A stretch of 64,000 bases of DNA. Origin: an uncultured Tateyamaria sp. Its GTDB lineage: Bacteria; Pseudomonadota; Alphaproteobacteria; Rhodobacterales; Rhodobacteraceae. A model generated the notes under the pieces. It had not been told where the DNA came from. It searched no databases and saw only the letters and a program-made list of their open reading frames with translations. The stretch covers positions 2,067,501-2,131,500 of the forward strand of contig NZ_CANNDN010000001.1 of the NCBI RefSeq assembly GCF_947503465.1, written 5' to 3'. Of this stretch, positions 1-8,096 are shown in pieces (the stretch's first letter is position 1; every line of letters begins with the position of its first letter). The translations under genes were made by a program, and so were the position numbers.

Positions 1-175
1 TTCCCCCGAAGGGCGTATGCGGTATTACTCTCCGTTTCCAGAGGCTATTCCGCAGAGAAGGGCATATTCCCACGCGTTACTAACCCGTCCGCCGCTCACC
101 CGAAGGTGCGCTCGACTTGCATGTGTTAGGCCTGCCGCCAGCGTTCGTTCTGAGCCAGGATCAAACTCTCAAGTT
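1..175 (-). rRNA. rrs: 16S ribosomal RNA, 5' end (partial)
   Basis: Read on the minus strand, the first 175 bases are the start of bacterial 16S rRNA. They include the universal GAGTTTGATCCTGGCTCAG segment and the ACATGCAAGTCGAGCG segment, then a very short V1 helix (CACCTTCGGGTG), as is typical of Rhodobacterales. The gene runs off the left edge. The mature 5' end is placed near 175 by analogy with other 16S genes and may be off by a few bases. Confidence 0.97.
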
Positions 176-580
176 GAAAAGCTGTTACCAGCTTATCCTT
201 GACGTTCGAACCTCTGCACATCGTCCCTCCCGGCATGGAAGGGACAGTCTTCTGTTTGTTGTGCTTCAGGTTTTCATAAGAAAACAAGAAACCGTCCAAA
301 CAGTGAAGCTGACACTAGATCATCGGCCGAAGCCTACTAGCGCGATATACAGACGTTGATCCATCGAATGAACCAAACCGCCCACATATCTCTTCAGTTA
401 TCATCAATTTCAAAGAGCGTAGAGACAAAAGAGACTGGATGCGCCCTAACTTCTTTGGCGCGCCCCGCCCAAATACCTCTGATTTATTCTTGCGTCTCGT
501 TGCCGTCTGTCTGCGTTTCCGCTTCCGTGTGGCCCGTCTGGCGCCCCGTTGGTGCATCTCTGCGCCGCCGGTGAGGGGGG
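176..580 (-). other. 16S rRNA leader (transcribed spacer upstream of the 16S gene)
   Basis: This roughly 400-base stretch lies between the rRNA promoter (about 581-608) and the 16S 5' end. It carries a boxA-like antitermination motif and no plausible coding region. The short frames in it have no recognisable product and no ribosome binding site. It is inferred to be the rRNA precursor leader with processing and antitermination signals. Confidence 0.75.
408..420 (-). promoter_or_regulatory. boxA-like antitermination element
   Basis: The minus strand reads ACGCTCTTTGAAA, close to the boxA consensus TGCTCTTTAACA found in rRNA leaders, where it recruits NusB/S10 for antitermination. Its place inside the 16S leader supports the call. 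No boxB or boxC was assigned. Confidence 0.6.
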
Positions 581-608
581 TTCTACGGTTAGTACGGGGT
601 ACCCGCAA
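580..608 (-). promoter_or_regulatory. Candidate rRNA operon promoter
   Basis: On the minus strand a -35-like TTGCGG (603-608) is followed, after 16 bases, by a -10-like GTAGAA (581-586), or after 17 bases by TAGAAC. This fits alphaproteobacterial housekeeping rRNA promoters. Just upstream (611-665) are A/T tracts that could act as an UP element. The call rests on motif and position only. Confidence 0.6.
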
Positions 609-610
609 GT

Positions 611-665
611 GCTTTTTTGAAGAAATCCGCATTTTTTCCAAAAAACCGTATTTTCCTCGAAAAAA
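611..665 (-). promoter_or_regulatory. Phased A/T-tract region upstream of the rRNA promoter
   Basis: Three imperfect units of about 20 bases, each with a run of T or A (around 613-618, 634-645 and 653-666), lie directly upstream of the -35 element in an otherwise GC-rich sequence. They could be a curved UP element or Fis-like binding region for the rRNA promoter. This is inference from base composition and position. Confidence 0.4.
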
Positions 666-766
666 CAGGTGTTTAGGCAAGTAAATTTCGCCGACCTAAG
701 GTCAAATCGGTCGAAAATTACCCGGATCCTCACCCACTGTCACACGCCTGTTATCTATATATGGGG

Positions 767-787
767 GTATCCACAGACCTATCCCCA
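767..787 (+). promoter_or_regulatory. Two DnaA-box-like 9-mers
   Basis: GTATCCACA (767-775) differs from the DnaA box TTATCCACA at one base. CTATCCCCA (779-787), starting 12 bases further on, differs at two. An A/T-rich segment (751-762) lies just before them and a GANTC cluster just after. The arrangement resembles an origin or a DnaA-regulated promoter. The neighbouring genes are not those I would expect beside a chromosomal origin, so the function is open. Confidence 0.3.
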
Positions 788-788
788 A

Positions 789-918
789 GACTCACCGGAC
801 TCACCCGCCCCAAACCCATGAATCGCCCCCGATTCATCGCCACGAGTCGGGCGATTCACCAAATTAGCATCCAGATTCTCTGAAATTTTGCGGCACGGCA
901 CGGATTCATGTGCGACTC
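789..918. repeat. Cluster of nine GANTC sites, spaced near helical-repeat multiples
   Basis: GANTC, the CcrM methylation motif of alphaproteobacteria, starts at 789, 798, 820, 831, 844, 853, 874, 903 and 914. About 0.5 would be expected by chance in 130 bases. Offsets from the first site (0, 9, 31, 42, 55, 64, 85, 114, 125) all lie within about 2.5 bases of a multiple of 10.5, so the sites face one side of the helix. Several extend to GAYTCAY, and 818-837 is a perfect dyad, ATGAATCG-N4-CGATTCAT. No gene covers it. It sits between the 3' end of msrQ and the rRNA promoter. Confidence 0.8.
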
Positions 919-4980: not shown

Positions 4981-6801
4981 ATGCCGACCGATTACGTTGA
5001 AGACACGTCATTTCCGAACGGCACGGACAGGCCCTACACCGAATCCTTTAACGGCGGTGTTCCCATCGATTTTCAGATCGGAGACACGGTCAGCGGCAAC
5101 GTCGGAGTGCGGTATTTGGGAGGCCCCGACAACCAAGACCAAATATCCTTCAACGTTCAAGCCGGTGTTGCTTATGGTTTCGAAGTGACCGTTCAAAAAT
5201 CCGGGTCAGACGTGCGCATCGCGATCGGAGAAGACAGCGTTGAAATACCTTTTACAGAACCAGAGGGCAAATACACGTTCACACTCGGCCTGCCCTACGA
5301 CGCAAACGGCATAGGTGCGTTAAGCATAAGTGCTGGGTCGTCCGTAAACTACACCTTCACGGTCCTGGAAGTCATCTACCCCGACCCGTCCGAAGGCGAC
5401 GACTATATCGTCGGCAATATGACGTCTGACCGTGTGGACCTGCTGGGCGGCAACGACACCTATGTGGCGCTTGGCGGCTCCGATATTGTGATCGGCGGCC
5501 TGGGCAACGACAGCATCGACGGTGTCTGCGGCAACGACACGCTAGAAGGAGACGACGGCAGCGATACCCTGATCGGGGGCAACGGGAGCGATGTGCTGTT
5601 CGGCGGCGCGGACAACGACCTGCTTGATGGCGGCAACCAAGAGGACAGGCTGGACGGCGGCGCGGGCAACGACACCCTGATTGGTGAAAAAGGCGACGAC
5701 ACGCTGGTCGGTGGCGAAGGCGACGACGATATCAACGGCGGCAAGGACAACGACAGCATGACCGGCGGCACCGGGGCGGATATCTTCCGCTTCAGCCACG
5801 GCGATGGTCAGGACACCATCAGCGACTTCACCCGGGGCGAGGACCTGATCGACCTTACCGTTCTGGGCATCTGGGACATCATGCAACTGACCGTTCAGGA
5901 TCTTGGGTCGGGCGTGCGCGTCAACACCGGCAACGGCAACTATATCGAACTGACGGGCCTGACGACCCGCGACCTGACAAATGACGATTTCATGCTGGTG
6001 GACCCACCCGTCACCACCACCACCGATGGCGCCGACGACATCACCGGCACGGGCGCGGCCGACATGTTTCTGGGCGGCGATGGCGCCGACCGGTTGCGGG
6101 GCGAAGGCGGGCGCGACACGCTGGATGGCGGATCAGGCCGCGACACGATTTATGGCGGCGCAGGGCCGGACGGCATCAATGGCGGATCGGGTCAGGACGT
6201 CCTTTACGGCGGACTGGGCGCAGACACCATTCTGGGTGGGGCCGACAATGACCGGCTCTATGGTGACGAAGGCGCGGATGTTCTGGACGGCGGCAATGCC
6301 AATGACCGCCTGTACGGCGGCGAAGGGTCGGACGTGCTGACAGGCGAAAACGGCAACGACAAACTGTATGGCGAAGGCGGGCGCGACAACCTGATGGGCG
6401 GCGCGGGCAAGGACACGTTGGAAGGCGGGGCAGGACGCGACACGCTGGACGGTGGGCAGGGCGATGACATCCTGACCGGCGGCGCGGACGCGGACTTGTT
6501 TGTCTTCTCGGACGACAGGACACGCGCAGACACAATCACCGACTTCAACGCAAATGTGGACGTGATCGACCTGACGGCTCTTGGTTTCTCCAGCCTCGCC
6601 GATGTCGGCTTTGTCCAGCAAGGTGACGATGTGTTTGCCCGGTTCAGCGACCGCGACTCACTTCTTCTGCTGGATGTCGACCTGGCCGACCTGAACGCCA
6701 TGAACGTGCTGGTCGGCGGACCGGCGGTGCCGGTCGGCGCGAAACGGGACGACGTCGTTGGCCCATCGGTCGCGGATGTCGAGGATGTTTTCATCTTCTG
6801 A
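4981..6801 (+). CDS. RTX calcium-binding repeat protein with two tandem RTX modules
   Basis: The 606-residue protein is acidic, has no Sec signal and is rich in GGxGxDxLxG nonapeptides that fold as calcium-binding beta rolls. An N-terminal beta-rich region (about 1-130) is followed by RTX block 1 (about 140-265) closed by ADIFRF and DFTRGEDLIDL. RTX block 2 (about 348-503) is closed by ADLFVF and DFNANVDVIDL. Both closures match the serralysin-type C-terminal domain, so the module looks duplicated. The C-terminus ends DVFIF, fitting type I secretion. No ABC/MFP exporter genes are nearby and no enzymatic domain was recognised. Confidence 0.88.
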   Translation: MPTDYVEDTSFPNGTDRPYTESFNGGVPIDFQIGDTVSGNVGVRYLGGPDNQDQISFNVQAGVAYGFEVTVQKSGSDVRIAIGEDSVEIPFTEPEGKYTFTLGLPYDANGIGALSISAGSSVNYTFTVLEVIYPDPSEGDDYIVGNMTSDRVDLLGGNDTYVALGGSDIVIGGLGNDSIDGVCGNDTLEGDDGSDTLIGGNGSDVLFGGADNDLLDGGNQEDRLDGGAGNDTLIGEKGDDTLVGGEGDDDINGGKDNDSMTGGTGADIFRFSHGDGQDTISDFTRGEDLIDLTVLGIWDIMQLTVQDLGSGVRVNTGNGNYIELTGLTTRDLTNDDFMLVDPPVTTTTDGADDITGTGAADMFLGGDGADRLRGEGGRDTLDGGSGRDTIYGGAGPDGINGGSGQDVLYGGLGADTILGGADNDRLYGDEGADVLDGGNANDRLYGGEGSDVLTGENGNDKLYGEGGRDNLMGGAGKDTLEGGAGRDTLDGGQGDDILTGGADADLFVFSDDRTRADTITDFNANVDVIDLTALGFSSLADVGFVQQGDDVFARFSDRDSLLLLDVDLADLNAMNVLVGGPAVPVGAKRDDVVGPSVADVEDVFIF

Positions 6802-7034: not shown

Positions 7035-8096
7035 ATGGCAATCATCAACGAAGCGCACGACGCAACAATCAACGCACACGCGTCGGGCAACTACATCATT
7101 TCCGAAGGCGATGTTTTCAACGGCAACCTTGGCGTCGGCGACCATGAGGATGGGATCAACCTGCGCCCACTGACGCCCGGAACGACATATACGGTGTCGG
7201 TGACAGTGGATGATCTTGCAGGCTTTACCGGGCTGACATTGATCAACCACAACGACTTCCACTCGATCACGCATCATGTGTCCGACGGCGTGCCCCATGC
7301 CGGTGTGCCCGAATTCGTTAACGGTTGGGTCCGCAACTTCGTCGAAACCTCCGGCGTCCGCGTCGACACCGACACAAACACGATCTCTTTCGATTTCACC
7401 CCGGCGGCAGGGTTCACCAGCTTTGCCTTCCAGGTGCAGGGCAGCGGCGTGGCAGAAGCCTACAGCGTGACATTCGAAGAAACCGTGCTGGAAAACATCG
7501 TGGACGGCACCGACGGCAATGACCGCCTGAACGGCTCCGGGGATCTGGACATCATCACCGGGGGCGAAGGCGACGATCACCTCGAAGGGTTCGGCGGCAA
7601 TGACGTTCTGAACGGCGGCGCTGGCAAGGACAAACTAACCGCAGGCACTGGCGACGACACCCTGAACGGTGGCGACGGCAACGACTTGCTGAATGCCGGC
7701 GACGGCAACGACCTGTTGGATGGCGGCGCACGCAATGACCGTCTGTTTGGTCAGGATGGCAATGACACGCTGAACGGCGGCTCCGGCAATGACCGCATCG
7801 ATGGCGGCGCCGATGACGACGTTCTGGATGGCGGGGCAGGCAAGGACGTGTTGACCGGCGGTTCCGGCGCAGACGTGTTTGTCTTTGGCAACGGCGCGCA
7901 CCGCGACACGATCACCGACTTCGAAGATGGCGTCGACCTCATGGACTTCAGCGGCGACGCGTCGGTCACCTCGCTGGCCGACCTGACGATCACCCAAAGC
8001 GGCGCAAACGTGGTGATCGGCCACGGCGGCCCGGATCAGATCACGCTTCTGAACATGAATGCCACCGATATCGACGCGACCGATTTCATCTTCTGA
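7035..8096 (+). CDS. RTX calcium-binding repeat protein (single module)
   Basis: This 353-residue protein resembles the C-terminal half of the RTX protein just upstream. A non-repeat N-terminal domain (about 1-150) is followed by GGxGxD nonapeptides (about 156-275), then ADVFVF and DFEDGVDLMDF, and it ends DFIF. It should be a type I secretion substrate; its transporter is not in view. AAGGGTATCAGGA precedes the ATG. It has its own terminator, so the two RTX genes are probably separate units that arose by duplication and divergence. No catalytic domain was recognised. Confidence 0.87.
   Translation: MAIINEAHDATINAHASGNYIISEGDVFNGNLGVGDHEDGINLRPLTPGTTYTVSVTVDDLAGFTGLTLINHNDFHSITHHVSDGVPHAGVPEFVNGWVRNFVETSGVRVDTDTNTISFDFTPAAGFTSFAFQVQGSGVAEAYSVTFEETVLENIVDGTDGNDRLNGSGDLDIITGGEGDDHLEGFGGNDVLNGGAGKDKLTAGTGDDTLNGGDGNDLLNAGDGNDLLDGGARNDRLFGQDGNDTLNGGSGNDRIDGGADDDVLDGGAGKDVLTGGSGADVFVFGNGAHRDTITDFEDGVDLMDFSGDASVTSLADLTITQSGANVVIGHGGPDQITLLNMNATDIDATDFIF

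Follow-up and report, generated by a model that had tools for sequence, protein, structure and literature searches.

The upstream activating sites for Fis at the rrn P1 promoters of Escherichia coli lie on one helical face upstream of the promoter, in bent DNA with A-tracts. The locus described here, an array of GANTC sites upstream of an rRNA (rrn) operon in an uncultured Tateyamaria sp., resembles them in its one-face sites upstream of rrn and in its bent DNA and A-tracts, whereas the Fis sites have another sequence, are fewer and closer, and have no link to the GANTC methylase CcrM. We know of no system in which CcrM sites are arrayed in helical phase with the promoter of an rRNA operon, and we found no description of phased GANTC, or of GANTC at rrn operons, in the open-access literature. 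The GcrA/CcrM promoters of Caulobacter and Brevundimonas (ctrA P1, mipZ, and ftsZ) are like the array in having CcrM sites beside σ70 promoters in the presence of both proteins. GcrA binds methylated GANTC and σ70 and brings RNA polymerase to promoters with methylated GANTC (PMC3667746); methylated GANTC binding and RNA polymerase recruitment are also described in a second study (PMC7403470), and at ctrA P1 the GcrA footprint extends to the -10 (PMC3667746). However, these promoters drive protein genes, many of them cell-cycle genes, and have few sites each, whereas at rRNA operons the array typically has three to nine sites, which are phased and lie far upstream. The pairs of hemimethylated GATC bound by SeqA (PMC5145175) likewise place methylation sites integral helical turns apart on one face but belong to the Dam/GATC system of gammaproteobacteria and keep no fixed phase to a promoter. 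The hypomethylated GANTC shielded by MucR in Caulobacter and Sinorhizobium also form groups at promoters, where they are occupied by protein, but those promoters, none of them rrn, are repressed and have at most four sites (PMC5172544). Finally, the GANTC enrichment at the ori of Alphaproteobacteria (PMC9836097) is a local excess of CcrM sites as well, but one that follows a regional chromosome trend rather than forming a 130-bp phased array, and the array is not at ori.

We analyzed a stretch of 64,000 nucleotides of the Tateyamaria genome (hereafter, the window), whose features are collected in Table 1. GANTC starts at 789, 798, 820, 831, 844, 853, 874, 903, and 914, and a re-reading of the sequence places all nine sites exactly where the preliminary description had them. 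The array also lies upstream of the rRNA promoter, as had been claimed: the 16S start is at 176 (-) and the promoter, TTGCGG-N17-TAGAAC, is at 608-580 (-), positions that were assigned by sequence consensus and not by mapped start sites. Relative to the rrn -35, the array sites begin at -310 to -185 bp, and msrQ (957-1559, -) ends just past them. The dyad reported within the array is perfect, with 8-bp arms around a 4-bp centre. The window's own genome shows a single rrn promoter copy, which may be collapsed in the assembly. Elsewhere in the window, two reading frames (4981-6801 and 7035-8096) are rich in GGxGxD-type repeats (hemolysin-type calcium-binding, RTX-like).

Table 1. Positions of the rrn-proximal features within the window
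Feature	Position	Strand	Basis
16S rRNA 5' end, operon owning the array	1..176	-	Rfam RF00177, 121.9 bits
rrn -10 hexamer TAGAAC, 17-bp spacer, then C-rich discriminator	580..585	-	invariant in alignment
rrn -35 hexamer TTGCGG	603..608	-	sequence; near-invariant in relatives
A-tract rich, bend-prone stretch	610..700	-	sequence
GACC-TAA-GGTC dyad, ~90 bp upstream of rrn -35	694..704	.	alignment; kept in most close relatives
Conserved spacer element TCTTGGGGATAGGTCTGTGGATACCCCCATATATAG	755..790	-	alignment
Phased GANTC array, nine CcrM motif sites	789..918	-	direct reading; equivalents in relatives
Perfect 8-bp dyad ATGAATCG-CCCC-CGATTCAT, holding two GANTC sites	818..837	.	direct reading

The chance expectation of about 0.5 sites that had been given for these 130 bp agrees with dinucleotide shuffling, which yields 254.6 GANTC per 64 kb, or ~0.52 in 130 bp. 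GANTC is, however, a scarce motif in this genome, with 54 sites in the window (positions 1-64000) against 255 in the shuffles, a depletion of ~4.7-fold. A 1.24-Mb sample of the genome contains 860, one per 1441 bp. Since the real density is below that of the shuffles, the honest expectation is ~0.09 sites in 130 bp. In this 1.24-Mb sample, ~30% of the genome, no 150-bp stretch outside the array holds more than four GANTC. The nine sites also lie near a common face of the helix: their offsets were said to fall within 2.5 of multiples of 10.5, which is correct (p = 0.0024 vs random spacing), and their Rayleigh R is 0.75 (p = 0.001 at 10.5 bp and 0.005 with the period left free between 10 and 11). 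Judged from the Tateyamaria window alone, the phasing is suggestive. Altogether, we confirm that the original observation was correct, and it was understated.

The genomes available for comparison are mostly drafts, with rRNA largely masked, and rrn upstream regions were gathered by three routes. Some were reached via msrQ, others by their similarity to the promoter in 198 genomes of the family, with extra copies added, and the rest by scanning named genomes for a pattern. The regions were aligned on the -35, giving 104 non-redundant Rhodobacteraceae regions, and GANTC was counted at -360 to -120. We found 547 sites, usually three to nine per region, with only zero or one site in ~9% of the regions. 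In Rhodobacteraceae, the stretch ~130-350 bp ahead of the -35 is strongly and specifically enriched in GANTC, which stands out among the spaced words of the region with 543 occurrences where its own composition predicts 123 (z 38); the next-best spaced word reaches a z of 8. In a separate sample chosen solely by the 16S start, four or more GANTC fall within 150 bp in 18 of the 27 Rhodobacteraceae whose upstream sequence was long enough, whereas the same search in 30 genomes of other alphaproteobacterial families found one that reaches four and none that exceeds four; this contrast makes the array a feature of Rhodobacteraceae rrn operons. The array is carried by most of the examined rrn operons of the roseobacter family. 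Where a gene has been inserted between msrQ and rrn, as in two loci (L011 and L013), the array remains at the rrn side. The insertion in L011 (genome G016, 2190-2857) is a small secreted-type protein with the C-terminal sorting-type tag VPLPAGLPLLLAGLG, and an inserted frame likewise lies between msrQ and rrn in L013 (G007). Three records named Enemella, Erythrobacter, and Sphingomonadales (L141, L148, and L174) contain a typical Rhodobacteraceae rrn promoter pattern and are probably contaminated assemblies.

Copies of rrn within one genome are no more similar to each other at -380 to -190 than unrelated sequences are, and in most such non-homologous pairs both copies have GANTC sites. Thin cases are two G118 copies with one site each and a Bugula symbiont with one site per copy. 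The period of the 547 sites in the 104 regions is 10.6 bp, and pair distances peak at 11, 22, 33, 44, 53, 64, 73, 84-86, 95, and 105 bp, the commonest site spacings being near 11, 22, and 33 bp. As expected of an rrn upstream activating region, the sites keep a fixed helical phase to the rrn promoter, with a promoter-referenced R of 0.427 compared to a maximum of 0.21 when each array is rotated at random (0 of 2000 as high). For internal phasing the value is 0.32, whereas randomly placed sites give 0.014 ± 0.013, which puts the array 24 SD above the null. Since strict sets without shared 11-mers upstream mostly keep the phasing (p ~0.001 at 10.5-10.6 bp in four of five random sets; p 0.004 and a best period of 11.5 in the weaker fifth), relatedness is unlikely to be the cause of the phase. 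The preliminary description had looked to related genomes, and to a random-spacing null, to tell the array from a chance pile-up of sites. The cluster is present in related genomes and the phasing across them is far above the null, so that chance, which the window-only p values of ~0.001-0.005 would leave some room for, is ruled out by family-wide recurrence and phase and keeps a negligible probability. We regard the phasing across relatives as decisive, and this comparison of sequences shows the array to be a family-wide cis-element that is clearly under selection.

The phase is not confined to GANTC. Across the family, the AA/TT steps of the A-tracts at -120 to -40 are in register with the GANTC sites (z 22), and when GANTC is masked, WW steps still follow the 10.6-bp phase (amplitude 0.33-0.45, z 13). 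Since the masked A/T steps and the A-tracts share the phase, the whole 300 bp is one helically phased, bend-prone block, and because A/T steps outside GANTC share the register, bending by itself could account for some of it. It is conceivable, then, that the element acts mainly by bending: its phased A/T steps would give the DNA a curved path about RNA polymerase or a nucleoid protein, with GANTC as a bend unit tuned by m6A instead of a recognition site. We consider this improbable, as GANTC is ~10 times commoner than CANTG, GTNAC, and CTNAG in the same regions (320 vs 32-36), and GAGTC and GACTC are strongly enriched though expected to be poor bend units.

The DnaA-box element and the A-tracts lie between the array and the promoter, on the array's helical phase. 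The family form of this strongly conserved block is TCTTGGGGATAGGTCTGTGGATAACCCCATATATAG. Its window form contains, at 767-775, a DnaA-box-like 9-mer that differs from TGTGGATAA at one position, with a weaker tandem copy 12 bp farther upstream. A DnaA box with at most one mismatch occurs in 51 of the 104 regions vs 2% by chance, mainly at about -156, -168, -180, or -192. Control of rrn by DnaA may be considered from these matches, but as an idea separate from the array. That a DnaA-box element adjoins the array, and that GANTC rises near ori in Alphaproteobacteria (PMC9836097), could also be taken as signs of a replication origin, whole or partial, in this region. Such an origin is very improbable, given that the sign of the GC skew is constant across the window, that dnaA and a gyrB-like frame lie near each other on another contig, and that single genomes have GANTC arrays at several rrn copies. 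We rejected an oriC at the array on the lack of a GC-skew switch at the locus and of a one-per-chromosome distribution, and a four-site GANTC group near dnaA on contig C3 falls within the gyrB-like reading frame and not at an origin. The suggested role in replication timing accordingly found no support: the GC skew does not flip here, and genomes with multiple rrn have arrays at more than one copy.

We then considered which protein could recognize the sites. Within GANTC the centre base varies freely and the signal lies in the outer four letters. Outside it, the base at -1 is a pyrimidine in 79% of the family sites and the base at -2 is C or G in 80%. Since the motif shared across the family extends only slightly past GANTC, the GAYTCAY extension is not general; the preliminary description had noted it at several sites, and it does occur at five of the nine in the window, but neither it nor GAYTCA is conserved in the family as an extended motif. 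The extended motif of Caulobacter (YGAKTCG/YGAKTCK) accounts for 21.6% of array sites vs 12.6% of the genome background, a modest excess, and K at the N position in the rrn sense has a frequency of 0.62 vs 0.55 by composition. An apparent orientation of GAKTC toward rrn, with a first p of 1e-10, was set aside because much of it reflects strand composition.

These flanks, which are not neutral beyond GANTC, and the AANTC/GANTT near-misses, which share the GANTC phase, could reflect a DNA-binding protein that is blind to methylation, either a regulator or a nucleoid protein, that recognizes YGANTCR-like sites, with CcrM methylation incidental or occluded. MucR would be one candidate, as it protects some of the GANTC sites of Caulobacter and Sinorhizobium against CcrM (PMC5172544), but it is described as a repressor. 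We find such a binder rather unlikely, since the free centre base and the signal in the outer four letters are those of a CcrM target, and GGNTC and GANCC are not phased. The AANTC/GANTT near-misses are A/T-rich and hence explained by the general A/T phase, and we discarded them as weak proof of methylation-blind binding.

Both proteins of the GcrA/CcrM system are encoded in the Tateyamaria genome: CcrM matches the solved Caulobacter enzyme (PDB 6pbd) with an E value of 6e-166, and the DNA-binding and σ-binding domains of GcrA both align to the Caulobacter protein. As at a GcrA/CcrM-regulated promoter, GANTC lies upstream of a σ70 promoter in a genome that encodes both. The readers suggested in the preliminary description, a methylation-sensitive regulator, a GcrA-type factor, or another GAYTCA-binding protein, thus stay candidates. 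A search of 54 genomes found GcrA in every one and the CcrM RAMA domain in 53, missing solely in G162, whose genome is 78% complete. Since GcrA is in all genomes searched, co-occurrence of the array with GcrA and CcrM is uninformative. The reading that we judge most likely, at about even odds, is an upstream activating element for rrn, consisting of phased CcrM sites in bend-prone DNA with GcrA as the best candidate reader. Against GcrA, the array sites are far upstream of the core promoter, the Caulobacter extended motif is only modestly enriched, with a K preference that is small relative to composition, and G050, a genome of another family, has GcrA and the CcrM RAMA domain but no array.

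The sites also lie integral helical turns apart on one face, as pairs read by SeqA do, and SeqA binds GATC sites so phased on the same face efficiently in vitro (PMC5145175). With array spacings near 11, 22, and 33 bp the commonest, a SeqA-like protein might read hemimethylated GANTC pairs on one face after fork passage and thereby sequester or time rrn. We hold this to be quite unlikely, as sequestration needs no fixed phase to the promoter.

Returning to the activating element, we infer that CcrM methylates the sites, that a reader senses m6A, and that rRNA output is affected. CcrM would methylate the GANTC sites of the array, and an m6A-sensing reader, for which GcrA is the best candidate, would occupy neighbouring positions along one face of the bent DNA and help RNA polymerase at the rrn promoter. 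Since passage of the replication fork would leave the array hemimethylated, the amount of rRNA made from each gene copy would track replication and the activity of CcrM. The array probably ties ribosome production to the cell-cycle DNA methylase. More tentatively, and with somewhat less than even confidence, we propose that Rhodobacteraceae control rRNA synthesis through an epigenetic enhancer, in which a nucleoprotein array would assemble cooperatively on the phased CcrM sites and the methylation state of these sites would signal replication.

Paracoccus aminophilus is a species that we take to belong, like Tateyamaria, to the Rhodobacteraceae. CcrM is essential in this species (PMC3925955), and in Rhodobacterales GANTC is found in only 45% of ctrA promoters (PMC8116508). 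With CcrM essential yet so many ctrA promoters lacking its site, the array on rrn operons offers a direct candidate for the vital target of CcrM, namely, rRNA synthesis. If the proposed epigenetic enhancer is true, ribosome production would be directly CcrM-dependent, which could help explain the essentiality of CcrM in a group whose ctrA promoter is mostly without GANTC. The array would, moreover, provide an unusually clear example of methylation sites selected for their helical phase, and it would link replication state to the making of ribosomes in a group that ranks among the most abundant marine bacteria.
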